Below are positions 27,101-41,272 of a DNA stretch of 64,000 nt, piece by piece. Below the pieces are notes generated by a model. That model saw only the letters and a list, made by a program, of their open reading frames with translations. It was not told where the DNA came from and made no database searches. The stretch is taken from assembly GCF_029964055.1 (NCBI RefSeq), contig NZ_CP124836.1, forward strand, positions 744,001 through 808,000, written 5' to 3'. The position numbers were made by a program, and so were the translations under genes. This DNA is from Arthrobacter sp. EM1 (lineage in GTDB: Bacteria > Actinomycetota > Actinomycetes > Actinomycetales > Micrococcaceae). The number at the start of each line of letters is the position of its first letter. Positions within the stretch are counted from its first letter, which is position 1.

Positions 27101-27818
27101 CGTGGAAAAGCCGCTGGGCGAGGTGGCGCTGGAACGGCTCAAGGCCGTTGCCGCCCACAACGAGCTTGGCGCCGGCATGCAGCTGGCCATGAAGGACCTT
27201 GAGATCCGCGGGGCCGGCAACCTCCTGGGCGGGGAACAGTCCGGCCATATCCAGGGCGTTGGCTTCGACCTCTATATCCGCCTGGTCGGCGAGGCAGTCG
27301 CGGAATACCGCGGCGAGGCCGAGGAGAAAGCCGCGGAAATGAAGATCGAGCTGCCGGTCAATGCGCACCTGCCGCACGACTACGTGCCGGGCGAACGGCT
27401 GCGCCTCGAGGCATACCGGAAGCTCGCCGGGGCGATTACCTACGCGGCGATAGATGAGGTGCTCGCCGAGCTGGTGGACCGCTACGGCGAATTGCCGCTG
27501 CCGGCGACGAACCTGATCGACGTTGCCCGCTTCCGGGTGGGGGCCCGCGAGGCCGGGCTGTCCGACGTGGCCCTGCAGGGCAATTTCATCAAGTTCTCCC
27601 CGGCTCAGCTGCCGGAGTCCAAACTCATGCGGCTCACCCGGATGTACCCCGGAGCACAGTCCAAGCCGGCCCTGGACGCGGTGCTCATCCCGAAGCCGAA
27701 GACCGCCCGGATCGGCGGCCGGGACCTGCAGGACGCCGAGATCCTCGAATGGGCCAACGGCGTCATCCGCAACATCTTCTCCGACGCACCACTATCTGCC
27801 GCGCCGGCGGTGACGTAG
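24135..27818 (+). CDS. mfd: Transcription-repair coupling factor
   Basis: 1227 aa, ATG at 24135 with CAGGAG 8 nt upstream. The UvrB-like N-terminal part has EFPSWETLPHERLSPRSDTVG; the RNA-polymerase-interacting domain (about 545-615) has VVHEQHGIGRFVEL and YAPSKRGAPGDRLFVPTDQLDQVTRYVGG; the translocase has Walker A SGDVGYGKTEIAV (about 700), DEEQRFGVEHKE (about 800), SATPIPRTLEMS, RVGRGRERAYAYFLY and a C-terminal D7 domain. Mfd removes stalled RNA polymerase and recruits UvrA. Full length for the family. A metal-dependent hydrolase-like membrane gene follows within 6 bp. Confidence 0.98.
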   Translation: MSLNGPTLTGLRRVLAEDRNYARVRAEAARGFADRSEDYQISAPAGLRSALLAEMADGLAAAGTSTETPAAGSTDGSGPEPVVLAITATGREAEDLTEALRAFLPADAVAEFPSWETLPHERLSPRSDTVGRRLSVLRRLAHPESTTAGRLRVVVAPVRAVVQPIVAGLGELAPVTLKVGQEVPFSDVVRNLADAAYARVDMVTRRGEFAVRGGMLDVFPPTEDHPIRVEFFGDEVDQMRWFAVADQRSLTGPGVHHPTELHAPPCREILITPAVMSRAATLKSQLPAAADMLEKIAGGIAVEGMESLAPVLVDAMVPFLDQFPAGSMAVVIEPEKVRTRAHDLAATNEEFLEAAWSTASDGGTAPLDLSAAASEALHSASFRSLTETRTAALAHEVSWWSITSLATDEELLPDVDVLNLHAREPRGYQGDVAEMMDFIGSRVRGQWRIVVVTEGPGPAQRLAELFHDHNIPCARVDALDEDPQAGLIEVTTAAVGRGFVLDPLKVALLTEADLLGRTSAGSTKDMRRMPSKRRNAVDPLQLVAGDSVVHEQHGIGRFVELIQRKVAGGGDGVREYLVLEYAPSKRGAPGDRLFVPTDQLDQVTRYVGGDTPALSKMGGADWASTKSKARKAVKEIAGELIRLYSARMASRGYAFGADTPWQRELEEAFPYVETPDQLTTINEVKADMEREIPMDRLISGDVGYGKTEIAVRAAFKAVQDGKQVAVLVPTTLLAQQHYETFTERFSGFPLVVRPLSRFQSGKEAKETAEGVKVGSVDVVIGTHRLLSKDFAFKDLGLVIVDEEQRFGVEHKEALKKMRTNVDVLAMSATPIPRTLEMSLTGIRETSTLATPPEERHPVLTYVGPYTDKQTSAAIRRELMREGQVFLVHNRVSSIDRTAAKIRELVPEARVEVAHGQMSESRLEQIIVDFWEKRFDVLVCTTIIETGLDISNANTLIVDGADKYGLSQLHQLRGRVGRGRERAYAYFLYPVEKPLGEVALERLKAVAAHNELGAGMQLAMKDLEIRGAGNLLGGEQSGHIQGVGFDLYIRLVGEAVAEYRGEAEEKAAEMKIELPVNAHLPHDYVPGERLRLEAYRKLAGAITYAAIDEVLAELVDRYGELPLPATNLIDVARFRVGAREAGLSDVALQGNFIKFSPAQLPESKLMRLTRMYPGAQSKPALDAVLIPKPKTARIGGRDLQDAEILEWANGVIRNIFSDAPLSAAPAVT

Positions 27819-27824
27819 CCGGTG

Positions 27825-28655
27825 ATGGGAGGACACCACGCCGCGTCGGGAGCCGCGGCGTGGGTTGCCGTTGCGTCAACTGGCCCCTACGCGATGGGCT
27901 GGTATCCGCTGGATGCTACCGGGATCCTTATCGGCGGGATGGCGACGGCGGGAACAGCGCTTGTCTGCGACTGGGACCACCGCTCCAGCACTGTGGCGCA
28001 CTCGCTGCCGCCGCTGTCGAACATAATCGCGGTCGGCATCGAGAACGTCTCCGGCGGGCACCGCCAGGGCACCCATTCGCTGCTCGGTGCGGCGTTTTTT
28101 GTACTGATCGCGGCGCTGGCCGGGCAACTCCAGCTTCAGACGGACTGGGGCCTGCTATCGGTGGGCGCCGGACTGCTGTGTATGTTTATGATCAATATCG
28201 CCGCGAAGGCGCTGAAGCTCTTCCCGAAGTACGGTTGGATCAGCAACTGGGTCTTCGCCCTCACGATGGCCGGGCTGGTGACTTGGTTCGCGCCGCACCA
28301 GTGGGGCTGGCTCCCGGTCTCGATGCTGACCGGCGTGCTGGTGCACATTGTCGGGGACATGATCACCACCGGGGGAGTGCCGCTGCTCTGGCCGATAGTG
28401 GTCAAACCGCCGAAGTTCCTGCGCAAACTGCCGCTGCTCAAGAACGTCTGGAGGGCCAACGGCGCGTTCTCCATCCCGCTGCTGGGCCGCGCCGGTTCAC
28501 GCCGCGAATGGTTCATCCTGATCCCGGTCAGCGCCTATGCCATGATCGGGATGTTCGGCGCCGCGCTGGCCCTGGCCAGGGAGCACTGGCCCGCCGCGGC
28601 CGCGCTGGGCACCGGGCTCACCGAGAGCCTGATCGGGCTGCTTGCCGGGGCCTGA
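27825..28655 (+). CDS. DUF457 (YdjM-like) membrane-bound metal-dependent hydrolase
   Basis: 276 aa. GTG at 27822 and ATG at 27825 are adjacent; neither has a clear ribosome site, so translation is probably coupled to mfd, which stops at 27818. Family hallmarks are an N-terminal HH (GGHHAASG), CDWDHRSSTVAHSLPPLS, a GGHRQGTHSLLGA segment and VHIVGDMITTGGVPLLWPI, the spaced His/Asp residues of the YdjM family, with about six membrane helices. Physiological substrate unknown. It ends at a strong terminator. Confidence 0.85.
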   Translation: MGGHHAASGAAAWVAVASTGPYAMGWYPLDATGILIGGMATAGTALVCDWDHRSSTVAHSLPPLSNIIAVGIENVSGGHRQGTHSLLGAAFFVLIAALAGQLQLQTDWGLLSVGAGLLCMFMINIAAKALKLFPKYGWISNWVFALTMAGLVTWFAPHQWGWLPVSMLTGVLVHIVGDMITTGGVPLLWPIVVKPPKFLRKLPLLKNVWRANGAFSIPLLGRAGSRREWFILIPVSAYAMIGMFGAALALAREHWPAAAALGTGLTESLIGLLAGA

Positions 28656-28671
28656 CGGACACCTGGTTAAA

Positions 28672-28705
28672 CGGCTGAAGCCCCGGAGATCCGGGGCTTC
28701 AGCCG
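28672..28705. terminator. Bidirectional hairpin terminator
   Basis: Perfect 15-bp stem CGGCTGAAGCCCCGG / CCGGGGCTTCAGCCG with an AGAT loop between convergent genes. The minus-strand reading is followed by TTTAAC. Confidence 0.8.
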
Positions 28706-28723
28706 TAAAAGTCCGGTGCTGCG

Positions 28724-28957
28724 TTAGTTTTCGCCGGCGGAGTCCGAGCGGCCAAGAATCGTCTGCGGGATCCAGAACGCCGCGGCGAACAGGACCAGGC
28801 AGGCGGCCATCGGCCACGGGTTGCCCAGCGTCAGGAAGTTCAGCGAGTACAGGGAACCGCCAAAGAGGACCATCATCAGGACAAACAAAATGATGGTGGA
28901 ACCGAGGCTGTTCTCGTTCTGCGGCGTCTGCTGGGTCTTGGCGGTATTGCTGGACAT
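28724..28957 (-). CDS. Small membrane protein, function unknown
   Basis: 77 aa from ATG at 28957, with GAGGAGG about 9 nt upstream. A polar Gln/Asn-rich N-terminus is followed by two membrane helices (STIILFVLMMVLFGGSLYSL and PMAACLVLFAAAFWIPQTIL). I do not recognise a family. It lies 57 bp downstream of deoC in the same direction, so probably co-transcribed. Confidence 0.75.
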   Translation of the reverse strand: MSSNTAKTQQTPQNENSLGSTIILFVLMMVLFGGSLYSLNFLTLGNPWPMAACLVLFAAAFWIPQTILGRSDSAGEN

Positions 28958-29014
28958 TCGTTCGTTCCTCCTCGGCCCCGTAGGGCTCAAAACTGTGGCG
29001 GCTGCCGGAGCGGA

Positions 29015-29698
29015 TCAGTACGCGGACGAACCCTGTTCACCGTTGACGATCGCGATTCCGGAGCTGGCGCCAATACGTGTTGCACCTGCAGCAATCATAG
29101 CCCGTGCATCGGCGAGCGAACGCACCCCGCCCGAGGCCTTGACTCCGAGGTCAGGGCCCACCGCGCGGCGCATCAGCGCGACGTCCGCAACGGTGGCGCC
29201 GCCACCGTTGAAGCCGGTGGAGGTCTTCACAAAATCGGCGCCGGCCTCGACGGCCGCTTCGCAGGCGAGCACCTTCTGGGCGTCGTCAAGCAGGGCGGTT
29301 TCGATGATGACCTTCAGGATCGCGCCGCCGTCATGCACTGCGGTGGCCACGGCCCGGATGTCATCGGCCAGGGCGCCCTTGTCGTTGGCCCGGGCCGCGG
29401 CAATGTTGATCACCATGTCGACTTCTTCGGCACCGTCCAGCACGGCGCCGCGGGCCTCAAAGGCCTTGACGTCGCTGGGGGTGGCACCGAGGGGGAAGCC
29501 GACGACTGAGCACGTGAGCACGTCTGTTCCCTTTAAGGCCTTTTTGACCGTCTTGACCCAGACCGGGTTGACGCACACAGACTTGAACCGATACTCGGCG
29601 GCCTCGGCACAGACCGAGAGGATCTCAGCTTCGCTGGCCTCCGGCTTGAGCAGGGTGTGGTCGATGTAGGAGGCAATGTTCGCGGCTTCGTCGCTCAT
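29015..29698 (-). CDS. deoC: Deoxyribose-phosphate aldolase
   Basis: 227 aa from ATG at 29698, with GGAAAGGGA upstream. DeoC motifs in order: [67 protein letters not shown] (Schiff-base region), [11 protein letters not shown] and VKASGGVRS (second Lys). It splits deoxyribose-5-phosphate to acetaldehyde and glyceraldehyde-3-phosphate. It shares the nucleoside-salvage theme with the phosphosugar mutase and purine-nucleoside phosphorylase within 5 kb. Confidence 0.96.
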
Positions 29699-29865
29699 GG
29701 TGGTCCCTTTCCTGGCGGGCCTGGGACTGGGATTTAGCCCCTGAGTTGTCCCTTCGGGGGCCTTGTGGGCCTGCAGACACCGCATTCTTCGTCGCTTCTC
29801 AGGTGTCCATCTTGCCACAACAGGACCGTCGCCCGCGGGCGTCCGCCCAGCCGGCCGGCAATGGT

Positions 29866-30726
29866 TCAGGCGGCCTCCGAGAGGAACTCCGGCAGGCCGT
29901 CCTGAAGCAGTTGCGAGGCGCACACGGAAGCGGCGGAGGAAGCGGCCACCAGCAGCCCCAAGCGCACGCCGTCGAACACTGCGGCGTCCCCGATGGCCCA
30001 GATTCCAGGCACGGACGTGCGGAAGTCGCGGCCGATGACGATGCCGCCGTGCCGTGCTGTGGTGAGCCCGGCACTGACCGCGAGGGCGTCACGGGCAATC
30101 GGTTCCTCGGCCAGAACCACCAGGTCCGCGGCCATCACGGAGCCGTCCTCGAACACAAGACCGCCGGCGGGGGGTGTGGAACCGGCAAGGTTGGGTACCA
30201 CGGAGGCCGGACGCCGCGTGGTGCGGATGGGGCGGATACCACGGGCGCGCAACACAGCCTCGGCCTGACCCGCGGCGGTCCCGGTGCCAACCAGGATCCC
30301 CAGGGGCCTGCGGCCCAGGACGCGGGTGATATCCCTGACGGCCTCGCCCAGCCGGGCCGCGTCATCGATGGTGGCGTAGTTCAGGCACCGGCCCTCACCT
30401 GGGAGCGGGGCGCCGACGGGCGAGGACCCGGTCGCGATCACCAGGTGGTCGTAGTTGAATTCCAGGCCATCCGAGGTCGTGACGCAGCGGCTGTCCGGGT
30501 CGATGTAGCTCGCCGGCTGGCCAAGCCGCACGGAAACCTGCGGGAGGGCCGCGAGTTCCAGCAACTGCCCGGAAGCATCATCTCGATTGCTCAGCACTGT
30601 AATCCCGCCGGCGAACGGGGTCCGTGTGAGCTGGCGGACCAGGGCCTGCGCGGCGGGGCCGGCGCCGGCAATAACGATCCGGGGCCGGGCAGCTGACGGA
30701 GCAGGAACGGGGGAACTGGCGGACAT
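29866..30726 (-). CDS. FAD/NAD(P)-dependent oxidoreductase, NirB-N-terminal-like
   Basis: 286 aa from ATG at 30726 with GAAAGGGC upstream. FAD-binding [32 protein letters not shown], a NAD-binding [22 protein letters not shown] and the C-terminal [19 protein letters not shown]. Short for the class (normally about 400 aa). The spacing and the [14 protein letters not shown] segment recall the N-terminal FAD module of NirB-type nitrite reductases. It lies just before the remnants of hemD-like and nirD genes, so it may be a companion of the lost nitrite reductase. It has no Fe-S or siroheme domain. Whether it still works is unclear. Confidence 0.75.
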
Positions 30727-30875
30727 GGTGAGGCCCTTTCGATGGCGGCCGGTGGTGTGGCCGGAGTCCTTGATGGTCCCCAGCCTAGGCGGGCGATCTT
30801 TCCGGGGTGTTTCACCGGTGTTGCCGGATTTTGGGGTTCCGTTTCCCAATGTTTACCAGCCGGTAATGGCGTGCG

Positions 30876-31379
30876 TCACACGCCGATCCGGTAGCCGCGC
30901 TTCACCACGGTTTCCACCAGCCGGCCATCGGGCAGGGCGGAGCGCAGTCTGCTGACGGTCATGTCCAGGGCGTGCACGGAACCGTGGAGTCCCAACAGCT
31001 CGGAGAGTGACTCGCGGGACAGCACAGCGCCGCCGGCGCCCAGCAGCGCCCGCAGCAGCAGCAGCTGGGCCGGAGTCAGCTCGACCGGACCACCATCGAT
31101 CCGCAGGGAGCGGCCGCGGAGTTCCACCCGGCCCGAGACGGTATCCAGGCGGCGGACGTGGTTGAGGGCAAGGTGCTCCACCACGAGCCGGATCAGGGCG
31201 CCCAGCCGGAACCGGTCCGGGACCAGCGGCTGCAGCCCGGCATCGATCAGCGGCTGCGCCGTAATGGGACCGACCACTGCGGTGGCGACAGTGGTCTTCA
31301 GGCTCGCCACGAGTTCCCTGTAAACGCCCATCTCGTGCGCCGTGCTCCACATGGCATCCACGGCCTGGGGCGAGGCGGC
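30876..31379 (-). pseudogene. Uroporphyrinogen-III synthase-like/winged-helix protein, 3' part only
   Basis: Reading leftward from about 31379, SPQAVDAMWSTAHEMGVY, TTVATAVVGPITAQPLIDAGL and PDRFRLGALIRLVVEHL match the second lobe of HemD-like proteins. VELTPAQLLLLRALL...DMTVSRLRSALPDGRLVETVVKRGYRIGV is the C-terminal winged helix of the two-domain actinobacterial form. The first lobe, about half of a normal protein, is missing. Upstream, the frame runs antisense through nirD sequence and has no homology. Such proteins usually adjoin nirBD and may regulate it. The open frame to 31535 is thus not a real start. Confidence 0.8.
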
Positions 31380-31641
31380 GCTGATTGCCGGGCACCAGGT
31401 GGCATTGTTCCGCACGGCAACCGGCGAGGTGTTTGCGGTCGGCCACGAGGACCCAGCCACCGGGGCGCACGTGATGGCCCGCGGGATAACCGGCTCCCGC
31501 GGGATGCGCCACACGCTCGCTTCACCGCTGCACAAGGAGGTCTATGACCTCGCAACGGGGGAGTGCCTGGGCAAGCCGGGCCTTCGGCTCCCGACCTTCG
31601 GTACCCGGATTGTGGGCGGGTGCATTGAGGTCGAGCTGTAG
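31375..31641 (+). pseudogene. nirD: Nitrite reductase small subunit NirD, 3' part only
   Basis: AALIAGHQVALFRTATGEVF, VGHEDPATGAHVMARGITG, LASPLHKEVYDLATGECL and GLRLPTFGTRIVGGCIEVEL follow the Rieske-like NirD family to its C-terminus. The first 20 or so residues of a normal NirD (the W-x-x-VC stretch and its lead-in) are absent: upstream of about 31375 the sequence abruptly becomes the antisense of the hemD-like remnant. No nirB lies before it. The gene is a fragment and its only ATG (31342) lies in foreign sequence. Confidence 0.8.
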
Positions 31642-31650
31642 CCCCGGAGG

Positions 31651-33396
31651 CTACAACCCGAGCGCCTCGCGGACATCTGCCAGCACGCCGTCAAGCGCGG
31701 CGCGTGCCTCGTGCCGCGCTGCGGGCAGCTCGGCGGCCGATCCGACGTTGCGGATGACCTCCAGGTAGCACTTGAGCTTCGGCTCTGTGCCGCTGGGGCG
31801 GATGATGATGCGGCTGAGGTCCTTCGTCAGGTACAGCAGGCCGTCGGTGGGCGGCAGCTGATCGCTGCCGTCCGCGAGGTCCGTGATGGATTCGACTGCG
31901 GAGCCGCCAAAGGACTCCGGCGGGCTGACGCGCAGCCGGTTCATCATGGCGTCCAGCAGGCCCAGGTCTGCGACCCGGATGCTGAGCTGGTCGCTCGCAT
32001 GGAGCCCGTGCACCAGGTAAAGCTCGTCGAGGGTGTCGAAGATGGTTTTGCCCTGCGCCTTGGCCGCGGCCGCGAATTCCGCGATCAGTACCGCCGCCGA
32101 GATCCCGTCTTTGTCCCGGACCAGGTCGGGGGCGACGCAGTAACCCAGCGCCTCTTCGTAGCCATACAGCAGGCCGGGAACGCGGGCGATCCACTTGAAG
32201 CCGGTGAGGGTTTCCTCGTGGGCGTAGCCTGACGCAGCCGCGATCCGTGCCAGCAGCCGCGAGGACACGATCGAATTAGCGAAAACACCTGCCGTGGTTT
32301 CGGTGCTGCCGGCGGCTGCCAGCCGGGCCACGATGTGCGCGCCGAGCAGCGCGCCGACCTCGTCGCCGCGCAGCATCCGCCAGGATCCGGTATCGGGGTC
32401 CTTGGCAGCAACCGCTGCGCGGTCCGCGTCGGGGTCGTTGGCGATCACGATGTCCGCATCCTCCCGGGCCGCGGTCTCGAGGGCCAGGTCCAGGGCGCCG
32501 GGCTCTTCGGGGTTGGGGAAGTTCACGGTGGGGAAGTCCGGGTCCGGCTCGGCCTGTTCGCTCACCACCGTAACGTTGGCAAAACCGGCCGCGTGCAGCA
32601 CCGCGACGGCGGTTTTGCCGCCCACCCCGTGCATCGGGGTCAGGACGATGTTGAGGTCGCGGGCCGGAAAGTCCGCCGGCATGGCCAGTGCCGCGGCGGC
32701 GGCCTCGTAGCTGGCAACGATGGACGGATCCAGCACGGTCCATCCCGCCGTGGCGAGGGCGACGCCGGACAGCCCGCTGACCGCATCGATTTTGGCTGCG
32801 ATCAGGGCGTCGTAGGGCGCCACGATCTGCGCGCCGCGGCCGCTCTCCTCGACGGCGTGCCGGCCGAGGTACACCTTGTAACCGTTGTCCTGCGGCGGGT
32901 TGTGGCTGGCGGTCACCATCACACCGCCGTCGCACTCCAGCGCCCGGACCGCGTAGGCGAGCAGCGGGGTGGGCAGGGCTGACGGCATCAGGAAGGTGTT
33001 AATGCCGGCAGCGACGAGGATTGCGGCGGTTTCTTCCGCGAAGACATCCGAGTTGTGCCGTGCGTCGTAGCCGACGACGGCGCGTGGCCGGGTGCCGGGG
33101 GCGGCGTGGGCGACCGTGCCGGTCAGGAAGGCCGCGAAGCCTGCTGCGGCGCGGCGGACCACCATGCGGTTCATCCGGTTCGGGCCGGGCCCGAGGGCCG
33201 CGCGTAGGCCGGCGGTGCCGAACTGCAAGGTTCCGCTGAAACTGTCCGCGAGCTCCTGGCGGGCCGACGCGGCGCCGTCGTCGGCGAGGCGGATCAGTTC
33301 GGTCAGGGTGGCGGCGGTGGCGGGATCAGGGTCCTGGGTGGCCCAAGCCCGGGCGTCGCTCAGCAGTCGGGCGAGTTCGGCATCAGAAGACGTCAT
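31651..33396 (-). CDS. Phosphoglucomutase/phosphomannomutase family enzyme
   Basis: 581 aa from ATG at 33396. Family motifs: LQFGTAGLRAALGPGPNRMN, the phosphoserine loop VTASHNPPQDNGYKVYLG, the metal site VIANDPDADRAAVA, the sugar-binding GYEEALGYCV and phosphate loop RPSGTEPKLKCYLEV. Length and layout fit the PgcA/phosphopentomutase-like clade. Since deoC and purine-nucleoside phosphorylase are nearby, a phosphopentomutase role in nucleoside salvage is possible; glucose-1-phosphate for GalU is the other option. No ribosome site; TAGTTT ends 7 nt before the ATG, suggesting a leaderless mRNA. Confidence 0.93.
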   Translation of the reverse strand: MTSSDAELARLLSDARAWATQDPDPATAATLTELIRLADDGAASARQELADSFSGTLQFGTAGLRAALGPGPNRMNRMVVRRAAAGFAAFLTGTVAHAAPGTRPRAVVGYDARHNSDVFAEETAAILVAAGINTFLMPSALPTPLLAYAVRALECDGGVMVTASHNPPQDNGYKVYLGRHAVEESGRGAQIVAPYDALIAAKIDAVSGLSGVALATAGWTVLDPSIVASYEAAAAALAMPADFPARDLNIVLTPMHGVGGKTAVAVLHAAGFANVTVVSEQAEPDPDFPTVNFPNPEEPGALDLALETAAREDADIVIANDPDADRAAVAAKDPDTGSWRMLRGDEVGALLGAHIVARLAAAGSTETTAGVFANSIVSSRLLARIAAASGYAHEETLTGFKWIARVPGLLYGYEEALGYCVAPDLVRDKDGISAAVLIAEFAAAAKAQGKTIFDTLDELYLVHGLHASDQLSIRVADLGLLDAMMNRLRVSPPESFGGSAVESITDLADGSDQLPPTDGLLYLTKDLSRIIIRPSGTEPKLKCYLEVIRNVGSAAELPAARHEARAALDGVLADVREALGL

Positions 33397-33403
33397 AGCA
33401 ACC

Positions 33404-33409
33404 AAACTA
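33404..33409 (-). promoter_or_regulatory. -10 box, leaderless promoter of the phosphosugar mutase gene
   Basis: TAGTTT on the minus strand, 7 nt before the ATG. No -35 found. Confidence 0.4.
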
Positions 33410-33488
33410 GCCGCATTAGCGGCGGATGCCTTCCCGACAAGCGAGAGTCCCCTGAAAGATCGATCACAACCGGCTGGTGCTCCGGGCC

Positions 33489-33518
33489 TTGACAGCTATT
33501 TTTCCGGACACGTAGCGT
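33489..33518 (+). promoter_or_regulatory. Consensus promoter giving a leaderless Rrf2 mRNA
   Basis: TTGACA at 33489-33494 and TAGCGT at 33513-33518 with an 18-bp spacer. The ATG begins 7 nt after the -10 box, so transcription should start at or next to the start codon. There is no Shine-Dalgarno site. Confidence 0.75.
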
Positions 33519-33525
33519 CTGGAAC

Positions 33526-34008
33526 ATGAAGATGGGCCGGGGGGTGGAATGGGCCGTTCACAGCTGCGTTAACATGGCTTGGACACCGGCCGGCGAGGCG
33601 GTTAACAGTGCCCGGTTGGCGGAGTATTACAGCCTTCCGGGTGCGTATCTGAACAAGCAGCTCCAGGCGCTGGTCCGGGCCGGTATCCTTGTTTCCGTTT
33701 CCGGCCCGCGTGGCGGGTTCCACCTGGCGCGCAGGCCGGAAAACGTTACAGTCCTCGATATCGTGCTTGCCCTGGAAGGTGCCGGTCCGGTGTTCCGTTG
33801 CGAAGGCATCATGGCAAGCGTCCCGGATGCCGACATGGAGCGCAACGTTGTCCGGACCTGCCTGATCTCCCAGACCATGCGCCAGGCCGAACTCGCCTGG
33901 CGGCAGGCCCTGGCGCGGCAGACCATAGCCGGGATAGCGGACTCGATGGATCGGCGTTTCCCGCAGGACAGGCGGAAGGCGCTGCGCTACCTTGCCGTGG
34001 GGAGCTGA
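33526..34008 (+). CDS. Rrf2-family transcriptional regulator
   Basis: 160 aa. Winged-helix N-terminus GVEWAVHSCVNMAW, SARLAEYYSLPGAYLNKQLQALVRAGILVSVSGPRGGFHLAR and TVLDIVLALEG is the standard Rrf2 pattern. Two cysteines (FRCEGIM and VRTCLIS) stand roughly where Fe-S-binding members carry theirs, though the usual third cysteine is not evident. Rrf2 proteins sense redox, NO or Fe-S status. Its stop is 4 bp from the convergent purine-nucleoside phosphorylase gene. NsrR-like control of nitrite genes would fit the remains of a nitrite locus 2 kb away, but this is a guess. Confidence 0.9.
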   Translation: MKMGRGVEWAVHSCVNMAWTPAGEAVNSARLAEYYSLPGAYLNKQLQALVRAGILVSVSGPRGGFHLARRPENVTVLDIVLALEGAGPVFRCEGIMASVPDADMERNVVRTCLISQTMRQAELAWRQALARQTIAGIADSMDRRFPQDRRKALRYLAVGS

Positions 34009-34012
34009 GCCC

Positions 34013-34837
34013 TTAGAGCTTGGCGATGATCTCGGCGAGCAGTTTGGAGATCCGTGGTCCGGCTGCCTGTCCCGCTTCGAGGACTTCCCCGTGGCTCAGG
34101 GGCAACGGGCTGATGCCGGCGGCGAGATTGGTGACGAGCGAAATGCCGAACACCTCCATGCCCGCATGCCGGCCGGCGATGGCTTCCAGGGCGGTGGACA
34201 TGCCCACCAGGTCCGCGCCGATCCGCTTGGCGTACTGCACTTCGGCCGGGGTTTCGTAGTGCGGGCCGGTGAACTGGGCATAGATGCCTTCGTCCAGCGT
34301 GGGGTCGACTTCGCGGGCCAGGCCACGGATCCGTGCGGAGTACAGGTCGGTGAGGTCCACGAACGTGGCCCCTTCGAGCGGTGAGGTGGCTGTGAGGTTG
34401 ATGTGGTCGCTGATCAGCACGGGAGTGCCGGGCGTCCAGTCCTCGTTGAGGCCGCCGCAGCCGTTGGTCAGGACGAGGGTTTTGCAGCCGGCCGCGGCGG
34501 CGGTGCGCACCCCGTGGACGACGGCGCGGACGCCCTTGCCCTCGTAGTAGTGGGTGCGTGCGCCCAGGACCAGCGCGCGTTTGCCCTCCGTGGTCAGCAC
34601 GGAGCGGATGGTGCCAACGTGGCCCACCACCGAGGGGGAGGAGAAGCCGGGGACTTCGTCGGCGGAGAGTGTCGCCGTGGTTTCGCCGATCAGTTCCGCG
34701 GCGTCGCCCCAACCCGAACCGAGCACCAGCGCGACGTCGTGGGCGTCGACGCCCGTCTCCTCGGCGATGTAGTCGGCGGCGGCGCGGGCGGCGTCGAAGG
34801 GGTCTGTGTTCAGGAATTCTGTTGTACTCACCCTCAT
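34013..34837 (-). CDS. Purine-nucleoside phosphorylase
   Basis: 274 aa, ATG at 34837 preceded by AGGATAACTT. Trimeric PNP motifs: LVLGSGWGDAAELIG, PSVVGHVGTIRSVL, GARTHYYEGKG, VLTNGCGGLNEDWTPGTPVLISDHIN, GPHYETPAEVQYAKRIGADLVGMSTALEAIAGRHAGMEV and VTNLAAGIS. It releases ribose-1-phosphate or deoxyribose-1-phosphate from purine nucleosides. Together with deoC and the mutase this suggests local nucleoside salvage. Confidence 0.96.
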   Translation of the reverse strand: MRVSTTEFLNTDPFDAARAAADYIAEETGVDAHDVALVLGSGWGDAAELIGETTATLSADEVPGFSSPSVVGHVGTIRSVLTTEGKRALVLGARTHYYEGKGVRAVVHGVRTAAAAGCKTLVLTNGCGGLNEDWTPGTPVLISDHINLTATSPLEGATFVDLTDLYSARIRGLAREVDPTLDEGIYAQFTGPHYETPAEVQYAKRIGADLVGMSTALEAIAGRHAGMEVFGISLVTNLAAGISPLPLSHGEVLEAGQAAGPRISKLLAEIIAKL

Positions 34838-34948
34838 AAGTTATCCTGCCGGCCGGGTACTGCCCAGCGCCGCGCGCTGTGTTGTGGGCTGTTCTGGGCG
34901 GGCGGGATTCTTGGTGGTGACGGTCCGGATGGTGGACAATGGCTGATT

Positions 34949-36364
34949 GTGACTACGCATCCCGATTTCAGCTCACCCCGTATCGCAATCCTGGGCGGAG
35001 GGCCCGGCGGCTACGAAGCAGCCATGGTTGCAGCGTCCCTGGGCGCACAGGTGACCATCATTGAACGTGCGGGGCTCGGCGGCTCAGCGGTGCTCACCGA
35101 CGTTGTTCCGTCCAAGACCCTGATTGCGACGGCGGACCTGATGACCCGGGTCGGCGAGGCCGGTGAGCTCGGCGTCAAGTTCGACGTCGACGGCGGAGAC
35201 TGCACCCCGACGATGCGCGCGGACCTCAAACACATCAATGACCGCTTGCTGCGGCTGGCCCGGCAGCAGTCCACCGATATCCAGCGCGGCCTGGAAAACC
35301 AGGGCGTCCGGATCATGCTGGGATCCGGCAAAATGCTGGACAACCACACCATCGAGGTTCTCACCGTCGACGGCACCGAGACCATCGAAGCGGACGCGAT
35401 CCTGCTCGCCGTCGGGGCACACCCCAGGGAGTTGCCCACCGCCCGGCCGGACGGCGAGCGGATCCTGAATTGGGCGCAGATTTACAACATGGATGAGCTG
35501 CCCGAGGACCTGATTGTGGTGGGCTCCGGTGTCACCGGCGCCGAGTTCGCCTCCGCCTACAACGGGCTCGGGTCCAAAGTCACCCTGATTTCCAGCCGCG
35601 ACCGGGTGCTGCCCGGCTCGGACACCGATGCCGCCGAGGTGCTGGAAGGCGTCTTCGAACGCCGCGGCGTCAAGGTCCTCTCCCAGGTCCGCGCAGAGTC
35701 CGTCGAGCGCACCGCGGACGGCGTTATCGTCACCCTCGGAGACGGCTCCCAGGTCACCGGCAGCCACTGCCTGGTCGCCGTCGGCTCCATCCCGAACACC
35801 GCAGGGATCGGCCTCGAGGAGGCGGGCGTCGCGCTCACCGGGAGCGGGCACATCAAGGTAGACGGCGTCTCCCGCACCACAGCGCCGAACATTTACGCCG
35901 CCGGCGACTGCACCGGTGTGCTGGCGCTCGCGTCCGTCGCCGCGATGCAGGGCCGGATTGCTATCGCGCACTTCCTGGGCGACAGTGTGGCCCCGCTCAA
36001 GCTGCACCAGGTGGCCTCCAACATCTTCACCTCGCCCGAGATCGCCAACGTGGGTGTGTCCGAGGCCGAGATTGAATCGGGCAAATACCAGGCCGACGTC
36101 GTGAAGCTCTCGCTGCGCAGCAACGCGCGCGCCAAGATGCGCAACCACCGGGACGGTTTTATCAAAATCTTCGCGCGCAAGGGTTCCGGCACCGTCATCG
36201 GCGGTGTTGTGGTGGGTCCGAACGCTTCCGAGCTGATTTTTGCGATCTCCCTCGCGGTCACCCAGAAAATGCACGTCGACGACGTCGCCAGCACCTTCAC
36301 CGTCTACCCGTCGCTGAGCGGGTCGATCTCCGAAGCCGCCCGGCGCCTGCACGTCCACATGTAG
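34949..36364 (+). CDS. lpdA: NAD(P)H-quinone reductase, flavoprotein disulfide reductase family (LpdA-like)
   Basis: 471 aa from GTG at 34949 (long upstream extension rejected: it is antisense to the PNP gene). FAD-binding IAILGGGPGGYEAAMVAASLG, NAD-binding LIVVGSGVTGAEFASAYNGLGS, NIYAAGDCTG and a C-terminal dimer domain with VYPSLSGSISEAARRLH. The redox disulfide of true lipoamide dehydrogenases is replaced by GLGGSAVLTDVVPSK, with no cysteines. Such members, e.g. the mycobacterial LpdA (Rv3303c), are NAD(P)H:quinone reductases. Confidence 0.92.
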   Translation: MTTHPDFSSPRIAILGGGPGGYEAAMVAASLGAQVTIIERAGLGGSAVLTDVVPSKTLIATADLMTRVGEAGELGVKFDVDGGDCTPTMRADLKHINDRLLRLARQQSTDIQRGLENQGVRIMLGSGKMLDNHTIEVLTVDGTETIEADAILLAVGAHPRELPTARPDGERILNWAQIYNMDELPEDLIVVGSGVTGAEFASAYNGLGSKVTLISSRDRVLPGSDTDAAEVLEGVFERRGVKVLSQVRAESVERTADGVIVTLGDGSQVTGSHCLVAVGSIPNTAGIGLEEAGVALTGSGHIKVDGVSRTTAPNIYAAGDCTGVLALASVAAMQGRIAIAHFLGDSVAPLKLHQVASNIFTSPEIANVGVSEAEIESGKYQADVVKLSLRSNARAKMRNHRDGFIKIFARKGSGTVIGGVVVGPNASELIFAISLAVTQKMHVDDVASTFTVYPSLSGSISEAARRLHVHM

Positions 36365-36375
36365 TCTGCGGCGGC

Positions 36376-37068
36376 TCAGGAGCAGGCGTAAGGCGGGACC
36401 GTGTCCCCGGCACCGAAAGGCTGGAACCAGTGCTCGAAGCCCAGTTGGTCGGCGTCGTCCTCCAGGACGGCGAGGCCCTCTGAGTACAGCGCTGCACTGT
36501 CCGCGTCCGCCAGCAGGACTTCATCAACCTGTGCCCGCCAGTCGGCCGGGAGGTCGAGTTCGTAGATATCCTCGGTGATCTCCGCCTGGTCGAGCAGGCA
36601 GCGGACGGCGAGTTCGGCGGCAAGGCACCCGGGTGCGGTCCAGCCACGGACCAGTGAGGCTGTTACGTCGGCGGCGACGACGATGAACTTCTGGGTGAAC
36701 TTAGCGTCGTAGCTGGACGCAAACTGTGGCGGCAGCGAGGACAGCACGGAGGTCCCGGCGATTTCGGACGCCGTGACGGACTGCAGCTGGCTCAGGTTAC
36801 CCAGGTCGCGGAAGAGCTGGTCGATCAGGATGCTGGAGGAATTCCACAAGAGACCGGCGAGAAGTCGGGCCTGTTGCACTTGTTGCCCGCGGTCCTCTGG
36901 CCCGAGGGCTACCATTTCAGCCAAGTCTTCCGGGTCAAACTGGAGCCGCTGTTCCGGCGTCATGTCCGCCGGATGTGGGTCCAGGCCCAGCAATTCCAGG
37001 CTCAGCCCGGTCAGCTTGTCGGCGTCGGTCAGGAGTTCTTCGGTGATGTCGTCGTCGTCGGCGCTCAT
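36376..37068 (-). CDS. Hypothetical acidic protein
   Basis: 230 aa from ATG at 37068. Strongly acidic N-terminus (SADDDDITEELLTDADK), then PADMTPEQRLQFDPEDLAEMVALGPEDRG, a helical middle with ILIDQLFRDLGNLSQLQSVTASEIAG and a C-terminus rich in Asp/Glu. No membrane segment and no motif that I recognise. The TAGCAT box 7 nt before the ATG and the lack of a ribosome site suggest a leaderless mRNA. It is convergent with lpdA, 11 bp apart, and divergent from the DUF3761 gene. Confidence 0.7.
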   Translation of the reverse strand: MSADDDDITEELLTDADKLTGLSLELLGLDPHPADMTPEQRLQFDPEDLAEMVALGPEDRGQQVQQARLLAGLLWNSSSILIDQLFRDLGNLSQLQSVTASEIAGTSVLSSLPPQFASSYDAKFTQKFIVVAADVTASLVRGWTAPGCLAAELAVRCLLDQAEITEDIYELDLPADWRAQVDEVLLADADSAALYSEGLAVLEDDADQLGFEHWFQPFGAGDTVPPYACS

Positions 37069-37075
37069 GGCCCCG

Positions 37076-37081
37076 ATGCTA
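37076..37081 (-). promoter_or_regulatory. -10 box, leaderless promoter of the acidic hypothetical gene
   Basis: TAGCAT on the minus strand ends 7 nt before the ATG. No good -35. Confidence 0.4.
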
Positions 37082-37279
37082 CCGGGCTTCCGGCCGATGC
37101 CCGATTCCCGTGACGCGGAAGCCGATAACGGGCCGCGGCTGGCCTGATGCCGTCTGGACCCGGAACGAGGGCCGCTGACTGCCGGCGAACCGAACCCGAG
37201 GCCAGCGTTGAAGCCCTTCGGCATGCTGCTAATGTGACGGCGTCTCAATCGCATCATTCTTAATTTCCCGGGGGAAAAT

Positions 37280-38128
37280 ATGCTCGATTTTTCAAAAGCT
37301 TCGCCGCGCACGAAGTTCGGTTGGCGCCCGACGGTCCTGTTTTGGGTCGTTGCGGTCGTTGTGTTCCTTCTGGCCCTCCTATTCGCCGCTGCAGGAGGCT
37401 TTGGTGCCGTCCTGATCCTCCTGGGCCTCATTGCCGTGGTGACCGGACTCTACGCGCTGTTGTTCAAGCGGCGATCGTGGGTAGGCATTCCGCACCGCAA
37501 GAGCGCACTGCTGGTTGCCGGCTCGGGAATTGCCCTTTTCATCGTCGGTGGCATTGTTGGCGGAGCGACGGCTTCGTCGACGGGCAACCAAAGCAGGTCT
37601 TCACTGGTTTCTCCGCAAGCATCCGCGAACGCGACGCCGACGCCGACGCCGACAGCCACGAATCCGGCGAAGTCGGCCTGCCTGACGGTCAACGAGACTA
37701 AAAGCTACAACGGCGATGTCTTTGTTTGCACGATGGGCGCGGATCAGCGTCTGGTGTGGTTGTCGGAAGCGGAGTCAAAGAAGATCGTTGCAAAGGCTGC
37801 CGCCGATAAGTTGGCAGCGGAGAAGGCTGCTGCGGACCAGTTGGCAGCGGAGAAGGCTGCTGCAGACAAGGCAGCGGCGGAGAAGGCTGCTGCAGACAAG
37901 GCAGCGGCTGACAAAGTTGCTGCCGACAAGGCAGCGGCGGATAAGGCTGCGGCAGACGCTGCCGCCCGACGGGCCCCCGCTCCCGCTCCTGCGGCTCCTC
38001 CGGTGGTCCCTGCAGTCCCCGCGGTACCCGCTCCGGTCGGGGGCACGATCATCTGCAAGGACGGTTACATCTGGCCCAGCGCCACGCGGCAGGGAGCATG
38101 CAGCAGGCACGGTGGCATCAGGAACTAA
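37280..38128 (+). CDS. Membrane protein with Ala/Lys coiled-coil repeat and C-terminal DUF3761
   Basis: 282 aa, ATG at 37280 after GGGGGA. Three hydrophobic segments in the first 95 residues, then a Thr/Pro linker (TPTPTPTATNPAK) and a two-cysteine segment (ACLTVNETKSYNGDVFVCTMG). From about 168 to 232 there are repeats of AAADKAAAEK type, which should form a long charged helix. The end, GGTIICKDGYIWPSATRQGACSRHGGIRN, is the DUF3761 motif (CKDG...GACS-HGG). The DNA of the repeats is itself repetitive (about 37785-37970), so copy number may vary. Probably an envelope-anchored protein with an exposed small domain; function unknown. Confidence 0.8.
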   Translation: MLDFSKASPRTKFGWRPTVLFWVVAVVVFLLALLFAAAGGFGAVLILLGLIAVVTGLYALLFKRRSWVGIPHRKSALLVAGSGIALFIVGGIVGGATASSTGNQSRSSLVSPQASANATPTPTPTATNPAKSACLTVNETKSYNGDVFVCTMGADQRLVWLSEAESKKIVAKAAADKLAAEKAAADQLAAEKAAADKAAAEKAAADKAAADKVAADKAAADKAAADAAARRAPAPAPAAPPVVPAVPAVPAPVGGTIICKDGYIWPSATRQGACSRHGGIRN

Positions 38129-38161
38129 ACCACAGCTGAAGTGCTGGACGGCATTCTGAAT

Positions 38162-38197
38162 GAGAATGCCGGGGGTCTTTAGGCGCCCGGCATTCTC
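38162..38197. terminator. Hairpin terminator between DUF3761 gene and narK remnant
   Basis: Perfect 12-bp stem GAGAATGCCGGG / CCCGGCATTCTC with a 12-nt loop, 34 bp after the DUF3761 stop. Confidence 0.65.
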
Positions 38198-38210
38198 GTC
38201 TCCAAGTCAA

Positions 38211-38612
38211 CTAGGCCAGGAGTGTGGTGGCGGTTGGGACGGCGAGCTGTGCGACGGCGGCGCCGAGGTTTCCGCCGCCGGCGTTTAGCCCCAGCGCCCA
38301 GCCCTTTTCGTGGGCCGGATGGAAGAAGGTGATATTGGCTATCGAGCTGGCGAAGTTGCCCCCCGCCGAAGCCGGCCAGCGCTGCCACGAAGAGCATGGT
38401 GCCGAAGGGGGTCTCCGGGTTGGAGACGCACAGGGCCAGGCCAGTTGAGGGGATGAGCAGCAGCAGGGCCGGGCCGATGGTCCAGTTGCGGCCGCCGAAG
38501 CGCGGACCATAAGGCATAGGGATCCCGGGGGTGGCGCCGACCAGGCTCGGCATGGAAATGAGCCAGATGATTTCCGAGGTGGTGAAGGTGAAGCCGGCCG
38601 CCGGCAGTAAGG
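38211..38612 (-). pseudogene. narK: NarK-type nitrate/nitrite transporter fragment with a frameshift
   Basis: Reading leftward from about 38612, LPAAGFTFTTSEIIWLISMPSL, GPRFGGRNWTIGPALLLLIP and NPETPFGTMLFVAALAGFGGG match the early membrane part of the NarK/NasA nitrate-nitrite transporter family. The frame then shifts by one base in a run of six C (38359-38364 on the plus strand), after which NFASSIANITFFHPAHEKG and ALGLNAGGGNLGAAVAQL continue the same family. It stops at 38211. Only about 130 of some 450 residues remain; both ends are missing. The frameshift alone could be a sequencing error, but the truncations make it a relic. Confidence 0.8.
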
Positions 38613-38861
38613 TAAGCCGCGTTTCCGGGAGCCTCGCCGTTTGTTAACGTGCTGTGACGTTTGGCTATCGGCGCGTTTGTAACGGTGTTAGGGGTGGCGT
38701 GGGGCGTAGTGTGATGAGCACCACGTGAGACGAATCCCGGTGTCCAAATAGTGGAACACTTGTCCATTGGATGGACTGTTGGAACTATCATGTAATCCTA
38801 CTTATCCCCATCCGGGCGGTCTCAATCATCACCGGTCCGGTCTTTATGAAAGCGCTACTAC

Positions 38862-40274
38862 ATGTCATCCACTGCCACTTCCGCAGAGCAGGGGTCCGCC
38901 AAGCCGGTGAACTCGCGCGGCCGCGTTATCGTCGCCAGCCTGATCGGGACCACCGTCGAGTTCTACGACTTCTACGTGTACGCCACCGCCGCCGTGCTCG
39001 TGTTCCCCAAACTGTTCTTCCCCGGTCAAAACGAGACCACCCAGCTGTTGAGCTCCTTCGCTGTCTTCGGCGTCGCGTTCGTTGCCCGGCCGCTCGGGTC
39101 CGTGATCTTTGGCCACTTCGGTGACAAGTTTGGCCGCAAGGGCACCCTGGTCGCCTCGCTGCTGACCATGGGTATCGCCACCTTCCTGATCGGCTGCCTG
39201 CCAACGGCGACCGTTCCCGGCTGGACCTTCTGGGCGCCTGCCCTGCTGGTTGTTATGCGCTTCGCCCAGGGGCTGGCCCTCGGCGGGGAATGGAGCGGCG
39301 CGGCGCTGCTGGCGACCGAGAACGCGCCGGTGAACAAGCGTGCCATCTACGGCACGTTCCCGCAGCTGGGTGCCCCGATCGGCTTTATCATCGCTAACGT
39401 GATCTTCCTGGTGTTCAGCTACACCCTGACGCCGGCCGCCTTCGAGGCGTGGGGCTGGCGCGTGCCGTTCCTGCTCAGCGCCGTGATGGTGATCATCGGC
39501 CTTTACGTCCGGCTCAAACTGATCGAAACCCCGGCGTTCACCAAGGTCCTGGAATCCAAAGAAGTTGCCAAGCTGCCGCTGGCCCGGGTCTTTAAGTCGA
39601 GCTGGCGCCAGCTGATTCTCGGGACGTTTATTATGCTCGCCACCTACGTGTTGTTCTACCTGATGACCACCTACACCTTGACCTACGGCACCCGCGCCTC
39701 CAGCCTTGAAACCGCCAAGGCCGCAGCCGAGAAGGCCGGCAAGCCGATGACGGAGGCCGCTGCAGCAGCGTTCGTCCCCGGCCTGGGCTACACCCGCAAC
39801 GACTTCCTGTGGATGCTGATTGCCGGCGTCGTATTCTTCGGCATCTTCACACTGGTTTCCGGGCCGCTGGCCGAAAAGTACGGCCGCCGCAAGATGCTTA
39901 TCGTCGTCACCGCCGGCATCTTCGTTTTCGGCCTGCTTTTTGTCCCGCTGTTCAGTGCCGGCTTCGTGGGCACCATGGCGCTGCTGATCATCGGCTTTTC
40001 GCTGATGGGGTTGACCTTCGGGCCGATGGGTGCGCTGCTGCCGGAGCTGTTCCCGACGAACGTGCGGTACACGGGCTCCGCCATCAGCTACAACTTCTCC
40101 AGCATCCTCGGTGCCGCGGTGGCCCCGTTCATCGCTGTCTGGTTGTGGGAATTGGCGAAGGGCAGCCCAGTGCTGGTCGGCATCTACCTTGCCGCCATGT
40201 CCGTGCTGACGCTGATCGCACTCTTCGTCAGCAAGGAAACCCGCGACCTGGAGTACACCAACAACGTCTCCTAA
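38862..40274 (+). CDS. MFS transporter, metabolite:H+ symporter (MHS) type
   Basis: 470 aa with 12 predicted membrane helices. VASLIGTTVEFYDFYVYATAAVLVFPKLFFP at the start and IFGHFGDKFGRKGTLVASLL (loop 2-3 motif), GLALGGEWSGAALLATENAP and GPLAEKYGRRKMLIV are the signature of the MHS subfamily, which takes up organic acids, betaines or similar solutes. Substrate cannot be assigned. The ribosome site is weak. It ends before a very strong terminator. Confidence 0.93.
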   Translation: MSSTATSAEQGSAKPVNSRGRVIVASLIGTTVEFYDFYVYATAAVLVFPKLFFPGQNETTQLLSSFAVFGVAFVARPLGSVIFGHFGDKFGRKGTLVASLLTMGIATFLIGCLPTATVPGWTFWAPALLVVMRFAQGLALGGEWSGAALLATENAPVNKRAIYGTFPQLGAPIGFIIANVIFLVFSYTLTPAAFEAWGWRVPFLLSAVMVIIGLYVRLKLIETPAFTKVLESKEVAKLPLARVFKSSWRQLILGTFIMLATYVLFYLMTTYTLTYGTRASSLETAKAAAEKAGKPMTEAAAAAFVPGLGYTRNDFLWMLIAGVVFFGIFTLVSGPLAEKYGRRKMLIVVTAGIFVFGLLFVPLFSAGFVGTMALLIIGFSLMGLTFGPMGALLPELFPTNVRYTGSAISYNFSSILGAAVAPFIAVWLWELAKGSPVLVGIYLAAMSVLTLIALFVSKETRDLEYTNNVS

Positions 40275-40315
40275 TCCTCGATCCCAGGCCCGCTCCCTGG
40301 CCTGGTAGGGAGCGG

Positions 40316-40352
40316 AAATGCCCGGCGTGTTCACCGAACACGCCGGGCATTT
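40316..40352. terminator. Bidirectional terminator, 17-bp perfect stem
   Basis: AAATGCCCGGCGTGTTC and its exact reverse complement flank a 3-nt loop (ACC), with A and T tracts on either side so it can act both ways. Confidence 0.85.
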
Positions 40353-40362
40353 CGGTGTCGCG

Positions 40363-40531
40363 GCGCTCCCGCAGGTCCGGTCGGGAAGGGCCCGGCGCTC
40401 CCGCAGGTCCGGTCGGGAAGGGGCCGACGCTCCCGCAGGTCCGGTCGGGAAGGGGCCGACGCTCCCGCAGGTCGATTCCGAGGATGCGGGAGGGTTGTTC
40501 GGATGGCGGCAGGATCTGCGGGAGGGTTGTT
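40363..40531. repeat. 32-bp tandem repeat array
   Basis: GCTCCCGCAGGTCCGG-type units start at 40365, 40397, 40429 and 40461, exactly 32 bp apart. GCGGGAGGGTTGTT at 40486 and 40518 continues the same 32-bp step in a diverged form, partly as reverse complement. The units are contiguous with no unique spacers. It fills the space between the MHS terminator and the amidotransferase gene. Confidence 0.8.
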
Positions 40532-40540
40532 AGGGGCAGG

Positions 40541-41272
40541 CTAGCGGGAGTAGCGCTCCACGAAGTTTCGCAGGATCTGCATCGGTTCCGTGACGGTGGA
40601 CCGCCTGACCTCCGCCAGCAGCGTTTCGGCCGAATCCGGCGGGAAGTACCCGGCATGGCGGTAGATATCGATCCGGGTCGCCAACCCGTCAACATCGAGC
40701 TCGGGGTGGAACTGGGTGGCGTACAGGTTGGTTTTAATCCGGAACATGTGCACCGGGCAGGCGGCGGAGCTGGCCAGAAGCACCGCGTGGGGAGGAAGGA
40801 GGGTGCAGGCTTCCTTGTGGCCGGTGAAGGCCGTGAAGCTCTCCGGCAGACCCCGCAGCAGGGGATCCACCAGGCCTTCCGCACTCAGCTTGATGCTCAC
40901 ACCGGCCAGCCCCTCGCCGTAAGTGCGGTCAATCACGGCGCCCTGGTGCCGGCCGAGCGTACCCACGCCGTAACAGGCACCGAGGAACGGGAAATCCAAA
41001 GGCACGATCCGGTCGAGCAGGGCCGCGAGTTCACGCTCCACCCGGTGCTGGACGTCGCTTTTTTGCCCGGCAGGATCACTGGAGGTGAACGGACTCCCTC
41101 CTACGATCACCCCCGAGTAATCGGACAGGTCCAGTGGGGGCAGCGGCGCGGCTTCCATCCGAATGCGCGTCAGCTGCGCGGGTTCGAGGCCGCCGTAGCG
41201 CAGGTAGGCTTCGTATTCATCCTCGGCGGCGGCGTCCTCGGCCCGGGACGCGAGGAGCAGGAAAGGTTTCAC
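40541..41272 (-). CDS. Class I glutamine amidotransferase-like protein
   Basis: 243 aa from GTG at 41272 (VKPFLLLASRAEDAAAEDEY resembles the usual start of this group; GTG at 41287 is possible). The GATase fold shows YSGVIVGGSPFTSSDP, the catalytic cysteine in FPFLGACYGVGTLGRHQG, and the His-Glu pair in LYATQFHPELD. No synthase domain is fused, so it is a stand-alone member as in GMP-synthase-like or gamma-glutamyl-peptide hydrolase groups. The nitrogen acceptor is unknown. Confidence 0.85.
   Translation of the reverse strand: MKPFLLLASRAEDAAAEDEYEAYLRYGGLEPAQLTRIRMEAAPLPPLDLSDYSGVIVGGSPFTSSDPAGQKSDVQHRVERELAALLDRIVPLDFPFLGACYGVGTLGRHQGAVIDRTYGEGLAGVSIKLSAEGLVDPLLRGLPESFTAFTGHKEACTLLPPHAVLLASSAACPVHMFRIKTNLYATQFHPELDVDGLATRIDIYRHAGYFPPDSAETLLAEVRRSTVTEPMQILRNFVERYSR

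Follow-up and report, generated by a model that had tools for sequence, protein, structure and literature searches.

A junction at positions 31361-31364 of the 64,000-nucleotide stretch of Arthrobacter sp. EM1 DNA analysed here (the window; G000:C1:744001-808000, from a single-contig genome of 3.89 Mb that is 99.94% complete) almost certainly marks where one lineage of this Arthrobacter species lost 4,818 bp in a single deletion. The scar provides a nearly base-resolved example of the loss of a nutrient pathway in a soil actinobacterium: one step would have taken the reductase together with a cofactor enzyme of the siroheme pathway and the greater part of the likely regulator, and the two gene stumps left at the junction would both be dead. 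Features of the region are as follows (window positions):

29866..30849, minus strand: left flank, an intact FAD-dependent oxidoreductase of 327 aa that shares 98.8% identity with G031
30876..31364, minus strand: remnant of a putative NnaR-type regulator (HemD-like plus winged helix); codons 237-398 of 398, 5' part missing
31361..31364, no strand: deletion junction, the CGGC common to both break ends; 4,818 bp absent relative to G031, from base-by-base comparison with L091
31342-31641, plus strand: hybrid nirD ORF of 99 aa that begins in the regulator antisense
31363..31641, plus strand: nirD remnant, codons 34-125 of 125 relative to G031; start codon and ribosome-binding site gone
31651..33405, minus strand: right flank, an intact gene of the phosphomannomutase/phosphoglucomutase family; its 584-aa product shares 97.6% identity with G031

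Mapping of the junction and content of the deleted segment

The reference for mapping was Arthrobacter sp. H16F315 (G031, NZ_JAMXSS010000002.1; locus sequence L091), which keeps the whole locus and is the one genome on which the same-species comparison rests. Window positions 27790-31372 align with L091 20000-16415 at 98.6% identity (a flank of ~3.6 kb) and positions 31361-37206 with L091 11607-5761 at 97.8% identity (~5.8 kb); both sides are collinear with this intact relative and are interrupted solely by the missing segment, L091 11604-16421. Since these long flanks find their counterparts in G031 4.8 kb apart, the junction cannot be put down to chance. Base by base, the window agrees with the regulator side as far as 31364 and with the nirD side beginning at 31361, and the exact break is ambiguous by 4 bp owing to the direct repeat CGGC common to both ends; when the L091 flanks are joined in silico they reproduce the window junction at 79 of 80 bases (one mismatch). 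A switch from HemD-like antisense to NirD sense had been read from the window in a preliminary description, and it is present, but slightly to the left of the claimed 31375-31380. The one deletion between the two genes that was proposed there explains the junction to within these 4 bases, once the locus is aligned with a relative keeping nirB and nirD, here G031.

Following the CGGC, the break ends also share GGGGCG after a one-base gap. Among random break pairs in the same DNA, 2.8% share a run of at least 4 bp, and no longer repeat was seen when the break sites were searched in relatives. The shared repeat suggests that short-homology recombination, through slippage or end-joining, sealed the break, although a 4-bp repeat alone is no proof of a joining mechanism.

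The missing segment carried codons 1-33 of the 125 codons of nirD together with the nirB-nirD intergenic region, all of nirB, the whole gene of a uroporphyrinogen-III C-methyltransferase of the siroheme pathway (SUMT; 347 aa, TIGR01469 252 bits, cut-off 185), and codons 1-236 of the 398-codon HemD-like gene. It had been supposed that all of nirB, the first nirD codons and half of hemD were removed; the first two losses are as supposed, but 59% of the HemD-like gene is gone and the disappearance of SUMT was unforeseen. The absence of nirB, claimed from the window, extends to the complete chromosome, where the best TIGR02374 match (E=5e-44, as compared with E=1e-227 in G031) falls under the family cut-off, and relocation of nirB elsewhere was rejected on the same result. 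A second SUMT is likewise absent genome-wide, one SUMT remaining. In G031 itself, nirB has a one-base frameshift (L091 12563) and the deoC frame is split (L091 17863-18773), either of which may be a sequencing error or early decay.

The two gene remnants and their ancestral order

To the right of the junction the sense strand corresponds to NirD, the small subunit of assimilatory nitrite reductase, from position 15 to 104 of TIGR02378 (Rieske_2 14-104). Lacking the first 14 positions, it scores 64.3 bits relative to the TIGR02378 cut-off of 74.65, and the genome holds no NirB; the 5'-less window nirD is a predicted pseudogene of this family. The stump is probably dead because its start, ribosome-binding site and divergent promoter region were lost. 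Both genes were described as 5'-less, and so they are; no complete nirD or hemD frame was found by alignment, and the possibility of naturally short genes was rejected, for the nirD ATG in the relatives examined lies well upstream, 33 codons before the beginning of the window copy.

On the left, the antisense strand matches positions 203-372 of the 381 of the HemD-like/winged-helix family NCBIfam NF005568, with Pfam matches to HEM4 (170-230 of 231) and Trans_reg_C, and its open frame runs on into the nirD antisense to 31535, forming a 219-aa hybrid ORF. The intact G031 gene combines a HEM4 domain (54-294) with an OmpR-type winged helix (328-396), and thus has the NnaR architecture, in which a HemD domain is joined to a DNA-binding domain of the OmpR type; the window copy is a remnant of such a gene. 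Because of this architecture, and of a separate hemC-hemD-hemB cluster in the window's genome, the HemD-like gene is best interpreted as a putative NnaR-type regulator of nitrate/nitrite assimilation, a function in Arthrobacter that we infer by analogy. NnaR, an orphan regulator, is reported to have an inactive HemD domain in Streptomyces; it reportedly governs nitrate/nitrite genes in both Streptomyces and mycobacteria, and mycobacteria require it to grow on nitrate and nitrite (PMC6277429, PMC11162112). The original label of a HemD-like/winged-helix protein was apt, but heme-type hemD is a different gene, intact between hemC and hemB at G000:C1:2508572-2509333; the stump, with its winged helix, does not belong to the heme pathway, and a loss of heme synthesis through it was rejected. 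Loss of most of the HemD-like domain, and of the gene's place behind nirB and SUMT, makes it likely that this stump too is dead. The stumps should accordingly not be annotated "nitrite reductase small subunit" and "uroporphyrinogen-III synthase".

The intact order, HemD-like(-) SUMT(-) nirB(-) nirD(+) PGM(-), is found in 77 of 80 named relatives and is the ancestral state; the remaining three are short contigs cut by their ends, each showing the part that it holds, and only in the window are SUMT and nirB missing from between the two stumps. A hemD-like gene had been expected near nirBD in relatives, and the genes are indeed neighbours in the genus, but HemD-like, SUMT and nirB lie on one strand and nirD on the other. 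There is therefore no nirBD operon, and the loss passes through the nirB-nirD intergenic region.

A 28-mer spanning the junction (up to 3 mismatches) occurs in this genome alone among 206 of the genus; a junction common to other species was rejected (0 of the 205 other genomes). A nirD match above the family cut-off was found in 197 of the 206. Eight low scorers besides the window's genome were checked individually: nirD and the regulator are both missing from G018, G024 and G163, nirD is missing from G178 and G190, where regulator matches persist, G091 has a frameshifted nirD (G091:C1:1376125-1376398) that decayed separately, and the assemblies of the last two are incomplete. The gene loss in the window is recent, lineage-specific and strain-variable within one species, and is of a familiar and common kind, nirD loss being recurrent in the genus. 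A search of open-access papers turned up no description of such a loss in Arthrobacter.

Losses elsewhere in the nitrate pathway

Genes of G031 at ~5.6-10.5 kb from nirD encode a nitrate reductase of the NasC type, a NasB-like flavoprotein and a NarK-type transporter. From the window nasB, nasC and most of narK are gone through further deletions ~6 kb from the junction, which left the following:

37207..38213, plus strand: segment in place of G031 nasB, nasC and most of narK (L091 1246-5760), carrying ORF 37280-38128
38214..38608, minus strand: remnant of the narK-type nitrate/nitrite transporter, from alignment with L091 849-1245 and tblastn; 286 bp of the 5' part deleted, a one-base insertion (frameshift), 3' part missing

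The protein of the narK scrap is 65% identical to G031 NarK as compared with 93-96% for the NarK of four other species, which indicates that the scrap has decayed. Transporter and nitrate reductase were thus lost near the one-step loss at the nir locus, and the nitrate pathway was taken out by at least three lesions, the nir junction among them. No NasC- or NirB-class match remains in the window's genome; with nasB, nasC and most of narK also missing, neither an assimilatory nitrate reductase nor NirB is left. The strain would be unable to use nitrate as sole nitrogen source, and probably nitrite as well, although the latter is less certain because a siroheme enzyme of the NirA/sulfite-reductase type remains. 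This homologue and the remaining SUMT lie ~9-10 kb apart; given both, sulfate assimilation need not suffer, and a loss of siroheme for sulfite reduction was judged unsupported.

ORF 37280-38128 (plus strand) encodes a 282-aa product that has hydrophobic stretches at its N-terminus and a repeat rich in Ala and Lys, KAAADKAAA; it is absent from the corresponding place in G031, and G047 has a counterpart of 67% identity near nasB. Between this ORF and the narK scrap is a strong inverted repeat (GAGAATGCCGGG...CCCGGCATTCTC, 38150-38200) that is terminator-like by eye. Over 38214-41000, identity to G031 drops from ~98% to 90-94%, as if at a recombination boundary or through faster change.

Alternative explanations and known systems

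That reads were misjoined between two short similar stretches, making the junction an assembly artefact, is extremely unlikely: the break ends do have a short GC-rich stretch in common, but 4 bp are much too short to mislead an assembler, the genome is a nearly complete single contig, nirB, nasC and the second SUMT are absent from all of it, and independent lesions lie nearby in the same pathway, one of them with point-mutation decay. It has practically no probability that the short state is ancestral and that G031 acquired nirB, SUMT and regulator by transfer. Nothing beyond the presence/absence difference between the two same-species genomes speaks for such a transfer, while the full order is conserved at the same place across the genus, the window stumps match the middle of intact genes, and the phylogeny of nirB and SUMT is consistent with vertical descent.

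A greater, though still very small, likelihood attaches to the short genes being functional, with a 99-aa NirD-like protein and a winged-helix regulator still made and used. Both frames are open, and the pN/pS is 0.12 in the nirD stump (1 nonsynonymous and 3 synonymous changes) and 0.25 in the regulator stump (3 and 5), values to be set beside 0.15-0.40 in intact neighbours. However, these counts of 4 and 8 changes are tiny, and the changes mostly older than the recent deletion; their fewness fits a recent event and says nothing on continued use. Furthermore, no promoter-like site was found in 30700-31800, no ribosome-binding site is visible ahead of the hybrid nirD starts, and NirD has no NirB partner. 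It is similarly improbable that the deletion created a sensorless regulator, the leftover winged helix still being produced and occupying its former sites without the HemD-like sensor part. A single deletion that left two dead stumps is the preferred reading, and a pair of same-species genomes, one keeping the pathway and the other lacking it, would offer a convenient natural comparison of the cost and benefit of nitrate use.

The closest counterpart is the intact nnaR-type/SUMT/nirB/nirD locus of Arthrobacter and Pseudarthrobacter (e.g. H16F315), which has the same flanks at the same place and is 97-99% identical to the remnants, the window being short of 4,818 bp (5' nirD, nirB, SUMT and 5' regulator). 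Unlike other nirD losses in the genus, the scar is fresh enough to be mapped within 4 bases against a same-species genome. The intact G031 gene resembles NnaR (Streptomyces coelicolor SCO2958, Mycobacterium smegmatis MSMEG_0432, M. abscessus MAB_3520c; PMC6277429, PMC11162112) in its N-terminal HemD domain, C-terminal OmpR-type winged helix and location beside nir genes, whereas the window stump has only its winged helix and the last part of the HemD domain left.
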